Assembly (NCBI GenBank): GCA_027604505.1
Contig: JADIIX010000152.1
Location: 1 to 47,707 of the forward strand
Direction of reading: 5' to 3'
Length of the DNA: 47,707 nt
Source of the DNA: Gonapodya sp. JEL0774
Taxonomy: Eukaryota > Monoblepharomycota > Monoblepharidomycetes > Monoblepharidales > Gonapodyaceae
The notes below the pieces were generated by a model that was not told where the DNA came from, ran no database searches, and saw only the letters and a program-made list of their open reading frames with translations. Position 1 is the stretch's first letter. Each line of letters starts with the position of its first letter. The position numbers and the translations under genes were made by a program. Below are positions 27,037 to 28,616 of the stretch, in pieces.

Positions 27037-28549
27037 ATGTTCCCATTAAAAGGTTTTCAGATCAGCGGCATGATCACCTCGTTCGTCTACTACCGACACT
27101 TGGCAACTAGCGTGCGAACATCCACCTCCTTACCAATTCTCCTCCTCCAACCACCCGGAGCTTGCTCGTCTTTCACTCGGAGTGGATCTCTTTACCCACC
27201 ACTCGGTTTGTACCAGCTAGCTGCTACGGTAGCTGCAACTGAATGCGAAGTTCTTGATGCTGATGGGTGGAAGTTTTCTGTCGAGGAAACACTTCAAAGA
27301 GTGCAAGAGAAGCGTCCTCGAGCAGTTGGGTTCACAGTTACGAGTAAAACATGCTCACTTGTCGAAGAATGGGCGTCCGAAATTAAGAAGGTGGCGGAAG
27401 GGCTTCCTCCGGTGGTCATTGCCGGGGGCCCACATGCGGGGTTTAGCCCACAAGAAGTGTTTAAAAAATGCCCGTCGGTGGATGTGGTGGTGAGGGGTGA
27501 AGGAGAGCCAGTCTTTCCCGGAATCGTGGAAGTCCTTTCTTCTGCTCCTCCTCCCAATATTCTCGATCTGCTCGCAGAATTCGATGGGGTTCTTGTTCGA
27601 GACAAGCCTCGGGAGAATGATCGCAAAATACTTCGCGTCGAACACGAACACTTCTCCACACTTGCCTTTCCACGATTGGACTTAACAGCTCCGATCAAAA
27701 ACTGTACGTCCGATCATTCTTGCATTTGCCCTTTCCAATCTGGCAATCTCGTACGTTCTTCCCGTGATAGACTGGGCTCCCGACTCGCGCCGCACACCGA
27801 TGGTGACCTTCATGACACAGCGAGGATGCCCCTTCAAGTGCGGATTCTGTTCTTCCCCCAACCTTCATGGAAATCAAGTAAGTTCGGTTTCAAAGTGACG
27901 GATGTGTCACTCACTATGTTCCTTGAATGTCAAGGTTCGTGGATTCCCAGTTGAGAGGGTAATCGACGAGCTGGAAAGACTCAGTAAAGATCACGGGGTC
28001 CAGGAAGTTTCCTTCGTCGACGACGTATTCACAGTGAAACCATCCCGGCTCTTGGCGCTGTGCCAAGGTATCTCCGCCCGAAAGTTACATTTGAGCTGGT
28101 ACTGCAATGCTCGTGCGGATCAGGTTTCAACCAGACTTGCTGAAGCAATGGCGGCGAGTGGAGCTCATCAAGTGTTCCTCGGGTTTGAATCGGGCTGTGA
28201 TGATATGCTTAAGAGGATTTCCAAGGGAGCAACTGTTGCGCAGCTCGAGCGTGGAGCCCAAATCTTGAAAGATGCGGGGATAGACAGGTCGGTGGGGTTT
28301 GTGATTGGATTGCCAGGAGAGACAGACGACTCCGTGACCAAAACAATCGAGCTATTTCACCGCGTCAAGCCAGAGAGGAGGCAATTCACAAGGTGGACTC
28401 CCCTAGCAGGATCACCACTTGTTATGGCTGGACACGGAGTAGTGGGAGCTGATGCGAGGACTGGCTTCCATGACCAACGACAAGATGACAAGGTCGGGCA
28501 GTGGATTCAACGATGCTACGACGAGTGTCCAGGGAACCCATCAGTTTAG
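27037..28549 (+). CDS. B12-binding-domain radical SAM protein, possibly mitochondrial
   Basis: Belongs to the class of radical SAM enzymes with an N-terminal cobalamin-binding domain (methyltransferase- or cyclase-like; substrate unknown). Exons 27037-27703, 27771-27877 and 27935-28549 give 462 residues. The first 35 residues contain YYRHLATSVRTS, a presequence-like stretch. A Rossmann-type B12 domain spans about 35-175 (PPLGLYQLAATVAA, VLDADGW, VIAGGPHAGFSPQEV, VVVRGEGEPVF). The 4Fe-4S motif CPFKCGFC is at 242-249, after VTFMTQRG. The SAM TIM barrel shows FVDDVFT, LSWYCNARAD, VFLGFESG and FVIGLPGETDDS. The first intron is 67 nt with a canonical GTACGT donor and TAG acceptor at 27770. Such proteins are overwhelmingly prokaryotic. 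The stop lies in the first unit of a 65-bp tandem repeat. Confidence 0.88.
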
Positions 28550-28616
28550 GAGATAAGGTTAGGCAGTGGATTCAATGATGCTACGACGAGTGTCCATTGA
28601 ACCCAACACTTTGGAA
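28487..28616. repeat. Two-copy 65-bp tandem repeat across the radical SAM stop codon
   Basis: Units 28487-28551 and 28552-28616 match at about 55 of 65 positions, sharing for example GATGCTACGACGAGTGTCCA. Unit 1 is coding and contains the TAG at 28547; unit 2 is downstream and non-coding in that frame. Confidence 0.8.

Follow-up and report, generated by a model that had tools for sequence, protein, structure and literature searches.

A native gene for a putative cobalamin-dependent radical S-adenosylmethionine enzyme in the early-diverging fungus Gonapodya

RESULTS AND DISCUSSION

A B12-type radical S-adenosylmethionine (SAM) gene was confirmed at positions 27037..28549, on the forward strand, of contig JADIIX010000152.1 from Gonapodya sp. 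JEL0774, a member of the Monoblepharidomycetes and an early-diverging fungus according to a taxonomy look-up. The window analyzed is this entire contig (C152; 47,707 nucleotides [nt]), which is part of a 25.0-Mb assembly. The account that we favor, as a reasonably likely one, is that the gene is native to the fungus and specifies a radical SAM enzyme of the class B type that depends on cobalamin, is most probably a C-methylase and is loaded via CblD (MMADHC). Taken separately, the product is very probably a working cobalamin enzyme and, with less assurance, probably a methylase. The initial annotation had recognized a cobalamin-binding radical SAM enzyme in a fungal genome, and the domains, the public record and the taxonomy, which makes this fungus an early-diverging one, support this.

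Domains, motifs and predicted fold

The N-terminal B12-type domain, the CPFKCGFC motif and the SAM barrel that had been proposed from the sequence were all recovered. The B12-binding domain PF02310 covers residues 49-163 (27181..27525, +; 3.5e-17), and the same coordinates were obtained in a genome search, while the Radical_SAM domain PF04055 covers residues 238-398 (27815..28354, +, interrupted by intron 2 and mapped onto the exons by hand; 2.9e-23), both over the curated cut-offs. The [4Fe-4S]/SAM motif CPFKCGFC (CX3CX2C) was read in exon 2 at 27827..27850 (+). DxHxxG is the His ligand motif of B12-binding domains. Membership in the class 1 cobalamin-dependent radical SAM enzymes was judged by a Rossmann B12 domain, a CX3CX2C motif and the lack of the His motif, and the protein has the Rossmann B12-binding domain, has CX3CX2C in its radical SAM domain and does not have the His ligand motif, which occurs anywhere in only 2 of 153 relatives among the matches listed. 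The predicted structure is confident (predicted local distance difference test [pLDDT] 92.9) and shows a full-length B12/radical SAM fold, with structural matches spanning residues 19-448 of a 451-residue model. Judged by this predicted fold, the Gonapodya protein fits without peculiarity into the established class of cobalamin-dependent radical SAM enzymes, within an uncharacterized family that has bacterial, archaeal and eukaryotic members. The codon of Thr102 (Thr91 in the 451-residue model) lies at 27340..27342 (+), positions being counted by hand, and aligns with OxsB Asn186 and, weakly, TsrM Arg69, which are residues near the lower face of the cobalt. This position is a Thr in 78 of 84 aligned rows; TokK W76 aligns two residues past Thr91, which makes the assignment of the lower-face residue less sure.

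Gene model and genomic setting

The 462-residue frame is open across three exons (27037-27703, 27771-27877 and 27935-28549, +), and the "two ordinary spliceosomal introns" of the initial annotation hold, both being GT..AG, with homologues colinear over the junctions. Exon 1 (27037..27703) runs from the start Met1 through the N-terminal extension, the B12-binding domain and the linker, exon 2 (27771..27877) holds the radical SAM cluster motif, and exon 3 with the stop codon (27935..28549) encodes the remainder of the radical SAM domain and the C-terminal FH..W...Y segment of the family. Intron 1 (27704..27770, +; 67 nt, GTACGT..TAG) is read across by P0002 and P0003, and intron 2 (27878..27934, +) has 57 nt (GTAAGT..AAG). 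Within the limited range of splice sites tried, 11 exon combinations were open, namely the chosen model and 10 others. The three-exon model is preferred because it is supported by the homologues P0002 and P0003, colinear with it over both splice junctions (compared by eye, P0003 also aligned), and by the public record HDU93_002033 (Gonapodya sp. JEL0774, 451 residues), which is identical to it from Met12, the second Met (27070). A scan of 10 open reading frames (ORFs) on the contig identified RRP5 S1 domains, HAT repeats, a P-type ATPase, an arylamine N-acetyltransferase and the beta chain of phenylalanyl-tRNA synthetase, and given these neighbors the contig is nuclear. Thus, the claim that the gene lies among conserved nuclear genes and is not bacterial contamination is borne out by introns and neighbors alike. 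Directly 3' of the gene, its last 63 nt plus two bases (65 nt) are duplicated with 85% identity, forming a tandem repeat at 28487-28616 in which the C-terminal codons recur as a decayed copy.

Homologue family

A protein search with the Gonapodya query gave 320 matches, of which the best 120 were listed, and searches with the CblD-fused P0115 (see below) and with P0036 gave 232 and 653, again with the best 120 listed each; about 8,000 candidates were scored per search. The pooled set comprises 153 distinct proteins, 142 of them with at least 390 residues, and the statements on relatives that follow refer to the matches listed. The closest are P0002 (67% identical) and P0003 (EukProt, 62%), the other 117 of the 120 are 43-54% identical and are of bacterial, eukaryotic or unstated source, and the best match to a named bacterium is P0017 (53%). 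All 142 longer proteins carry CX3CX2C, 140 carry GGP, 141 the motif G[ED][GAP]E and 138 the motif [FY]T[RK][SN]xS, which is particular to the family, and PF02310 was precomputed for most matches of the first search. The best matches are therefore not all eukaryotic proteins devoid of a B12 domain, a ground for doubt named in the initial annotation, as close relatives, bacterial ones included, retain it. The labels of the EukProt relatives P0003, P0036 and P0121 resemble assembled transcripts.

In bacteria the family is rare and patchy. With up to four candidates scored per genome, a family-level score was reached only by the center genome in a sample of 395 genomes from the class to which a Flavobacteriales member belongs, and likewise only by the center genome in 395 genomes from the phylum of a Myxococcota member; the much weaker matches in seven and six other genomes of these samples probably stem from different B12 radical SAM proteins. 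A viral origin was rejected, the 10 viral-contig relatives being each at most 29% identical, and no plasmid-borne relative with annotated neighbors was found at E 1e-40 (query P0073).

Phylogeny

A quick tree was built from 93 rows, comprising 81 of the 142 longer proteins (72% identity filter plus a keep-list), six loci and six outgroups. In it, P0001, P0002, P0003, P0053, P0088 and P0136 join a 14-row group containing a diatom in a 20-row clade (Shimodaira-Hasegawa-like approximate likelihood ratio test, 99). A careful tree, for which 60 rows were taken from this set, retains the main clade in a 14-row version (support 100/98), within which Gonapodya groups with P0002 (99/90). Five of its rows have a stated eukaryotic source, i.e., Gonapodya and the EukProt records P0003, P0015 (the diatom Nitzschia sp. 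Nitz4), P0036 and P0053, and these share the one clade with no row known as prokaryotic inside it; the other nine, with no stated organism, were labeled eukaryotic by their place in the quick tree, and of the 43 rows labeled prokaryotic a named prokaryotic source is given for 13. A second group, the CblD-fused P0104, P0115 and P0121 (100/100), nests with P0117 from a gammaproteobacterial metagenome-assembled genome, a Poseidonia locus and three other proteins (100/98), so that rows with a stated eukaryotic source occupy two places in the family tree. A single eukaryotic origin was rejected: a tree forced to unite all 17 labeled rows loses 54.7 log units (approximately unbiased test, p 0.016, a guide only, since the groups were named after the quick tree was inspected), and therefore at least two entries of the family into eukaryotes are suggested by these sequences. 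The main clade may either have been inherited or have been passed among eukaryotes.

CblD fusions and cobalamin genes

In P0104, P0115 and P0121 the CblD/MMADHC domain PF10229 lies C-terminal to the enzyme portion, with respective scores of 43.4, 84.1 and 33.2 bits (cut-off 27); the Gonapodya polypeptide does not have this domain. Residues 580-708 of P0115 align with human CblD (7.9e-16 for chain 5cuz; 5.7e-14 for residues 160-284 of the full-length 9mrs), and the GCC motif, kept in all three, corresponds by chain counting to human Cys261/Cys262. According to the available text of PMC13376404 (2026), these cysteines bind cobalamin, which they load into human methionine synthase, with a heading stating that MMADHC binds MTR directly, and in that of PMC7847965 Cys261 is the sulfur ligand to cobalamin bound on MMACHC. 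Misassembly of the fusion is unlikely because the domain order is common to three diverged sequences. The simplest inference from these sequences is that CblD would charge the radical SAM enzyme in the fused organisms; that the Gonapodya enzyme may be charged likewise is an extension by analogy across two branches of the family. The fusion is a strong and testable hint. The model of a fused protein (pLDDT 77.7, predicted template modeling score 0.65) was not used for any docking claim on the CblD part.

A genome profile search located five pieces of methylmalonyl-CoA mutase on C8, three of MMAB on C33 and two of MMAA on C3. PF02310 had just two matches, one next to the mutase pieces and one within the radical SAM gene. 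A genome with no cobalamin-handling gene, which together with a silent gene would have spoken against the initial annotation, is thus not what was found. MetH (PF02965) was not found in the assembly, in a search where 7 of 14 controls were detected, nor was MMACHC, with none of its controls detected. For MMADHC, a search at 1e-3 returned nothing, with no control detected, and one at a limit of 10 returned two weak places, on C55 (E 0.002, 21.6 bits) and C45 (E 0.049). The C55 place was set aside as a CblD candidate, as no frame of the locus (L077) contains any of the sought motifs and its tblastn matches are short and chance-like. The C45 place (G000:C45:48450-48548, L078) reads VQVGCCACLVHPQWGA and carries the GCC motif; its PF10229 score is 21.4 bits against the 27 needed (E 2.3e-4, one open frame read), and a 47-residue tblastn alignment links it to the CblD domain of the fused proteins (1.85e-6, database of two loci). 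From its sequence, the C45 exon is likely a divergent CblD, and since it was missed at the default limit, CblD may be under-counted in fungi. Hence, among the companion genes proposed in the initial annotation, MMAA and MMAB were present along with the mutase, MMADHC probably so, and MetH was the one not recovered. The assembly presents a mutase, MMAA, MMAB and a CblD-like exon together with an empty MetH search. According to the available text of a fungal survey (PMC8085122), six of its eight proteins occur in Chytridiales and Monoblepharidiales combined.

Cellular location

N-termini were compared in 21 main-clade or fused members, six of which have a stated eukaryotic source. In 19 of the 21, the domain is preceded by an extension of 19-123 residues in which Arg/Lys always exceed Asp/Glu, and several of these extensions resemble mitochondrial presequences by eye; 11 of 12 other family members have 0-8 residues there, and P0017 has 19. 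The Gonapodya extension comprises 19 residues with two Arg/Lys. The mitochondrial-like N-terminus formerly proposed stands insofar as this extension has no acidic residue, but its hydrophobic moment is at most 0.30, and the near relative P0003, like P0053, has almost no extension, so that it is only suggestive and a mitochondrial site of the Gonapodya enzyme is weakly supported.

Comparison with known enzymes and gene context

Among the best 25 of 29 NCBIfam matches by E-value, no curated cut-off was reached (PhpK, HpnJ, BchE, MgmA, HpnR, etc.), and assignment to a characterized family was rejected on this basis. The best E-value (1.5e-40) belongs to the PhpK P-methyltransferases (TIGR04479), yet at 139 of the 600 bits required. 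For TIGR04014, the methyl-coenzyme M reductase glutamine C-methyltransferase MgmA, a methanogen enzyme with a protein substrate, 94 of 360 bits were obtained. In comparison with the class 1, Rossmann-fold enzymes OxsB, TokK, TsrM and CysS, the Gonapodya protein is shorter, with a core of about 420 residues and no long C-terminal domain, has a different lower-face residue (Thr, by alignment) and is encoded by a eukaryotic nuclear gene. MetH, methylmalonyl-CoA mutase and class II ribonucleotide reductase are likewise eukaryotic cobalamin enzymes but have other catalytic domains. The available text of PMC8085122 names these enzymes for early fungi and counts three main systems in eukaryotic B12 metabolism; none of the eight families that it surveys is radical SAM, and its main text contains neither "radical SAM" nor "Gonapodya". 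Among the matches listed from the open-licence literature searched, no report of the B12 radical SAM class in eukaryotes was found, and the available text of PMC10151467, PMC8065906 and PMC10147059 gives no eukaryotic case.

In Bacteroidota loci, the radical SAM gene follows cmk in three of three cases, overlapping it by mechanical ORF ends (L013, 9373-11999; L014, 9409-12621; L015, 2192-4077), and in the two loci reaching that far (L013 and L014) a MiaB/RimO-like radical SAM gene comes next, keeping six cluster-type cysteines and scoring under its NCBIfam cut-offs. By analogy, a nucleotide-linked or RNA substrate may be considered, as a lead only, because neither partner was seen among the ORFs compared in L016, L017 (downstream side only) and L018. 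Naming a substrate from gene context was rejected on these three loci and on Gonapodya itself, where a search run with no control found no MiaB-like partner.

Proposed mechanism and alternative explanations

The enzyme would bind cobalamin base-off and His-off, with the Thr near the lower face of the cobalt, after delivery by CblD, which in a second eukaryotic lineage is part of the same polypeptide. A first SAM would methylate cob(I)alamin, and a second would be cleaved at the [4Fe-4S] cluster to give a 5'-deoxyadenosyl radical; this would abstract a hydrogen from an unactivated substrate carbon, and the resulting substrate radical would pick up a methyl from methylcobalamin.

Alternatively, the enzyme might depend on cobalamin and yet carry out no methylation, acting by ring closure or contraction or by rearrangement in the manner of BchE or OxsB. 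We regard this as unlikely, though it is the most serious competitor: BchE and HpnJ score comparatively well in NCBIfam, OxsB ranks with the top structural matches over the full length, and the protein is devoid of a large C-terminal substrate domain, whereas the PhpK family has the best NCBIfam E-value and MgmA, a methylase, ranks second in structure, neither of which decides the chemistry. Methylation apart, a doubt about cobalamin itself comes from AprD4, which ranks first in structure and is not known to need cobalamin: the Rossmann domain could be an AprD4-like one binding no cobalamin, with a purely structural B12 fold. This is distinctly improbable, given that a sequence profile of the family recognizes MgmA, OxsB and TokK in their B12 halves but leaves the N-terminal half of AprD4 unmatched, and given the CblD fusions and the cobalamin genes of the same genome; AprD4 is about 20% identical to the Gonapodya protein, which scores 97.4 bits against the 500 needed for the AprD4 family NF033070. 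Finally, bacterial contamination or a recent functionless transfer would suit a class that is mostly prokaryotic and a family that is patchy even there (the two 395-genome samples). We consider it highly improbable: contamination is rejected on the two introns, the nuclear neighbors and the eukaryotic clade, which is supported and includes four EukProt records, and no named bacterium gives a close match.

Several points weigh against a C-methylase loaded via CblD. In the available text, the best structural match, AprD4, is a radical SAM diol dehydratase, and BchE, near in score, is a cyclase and not a methylase. The searches for MetH and MMACHC were empty, the CblD fusion and Gonapodya belong to separate branches of the family, and a eukaryotic source is stated for just one fused sequence of three, P0121 (EukProt). 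Moreover, cobalamin binding and methylation are both inferred from sequence, fold and genomic context.

Implications for B12 use in eukaryotes

The presence of this family in eukaryotes was not met in the literature searched, and eukaryotes may use B12 in one further way. It is a tentative proposal, which we hold at somewhat less than even confidence, that the family represents a fourth eukaryotic B12 enzyme class, long resident in several lineages, probably organellar and receiving cobalamin straight from CblD. If this is true, in fungi with no detectable MetH, such as Gonapodya, the enzyme would, along with the mutase, be a reason why CblD and the uptake of cobalamin are retained. With such an enzyme in a fungus, a diatom and further protists, eukaryotic B12 metabolism would gain radical methylation or a comparable reaction; vitamin dependence would have a new cause and CblD a new client, and the natural CblD fusion would make the hand-over of cobalamin by CblD to further enzymes directly testable.
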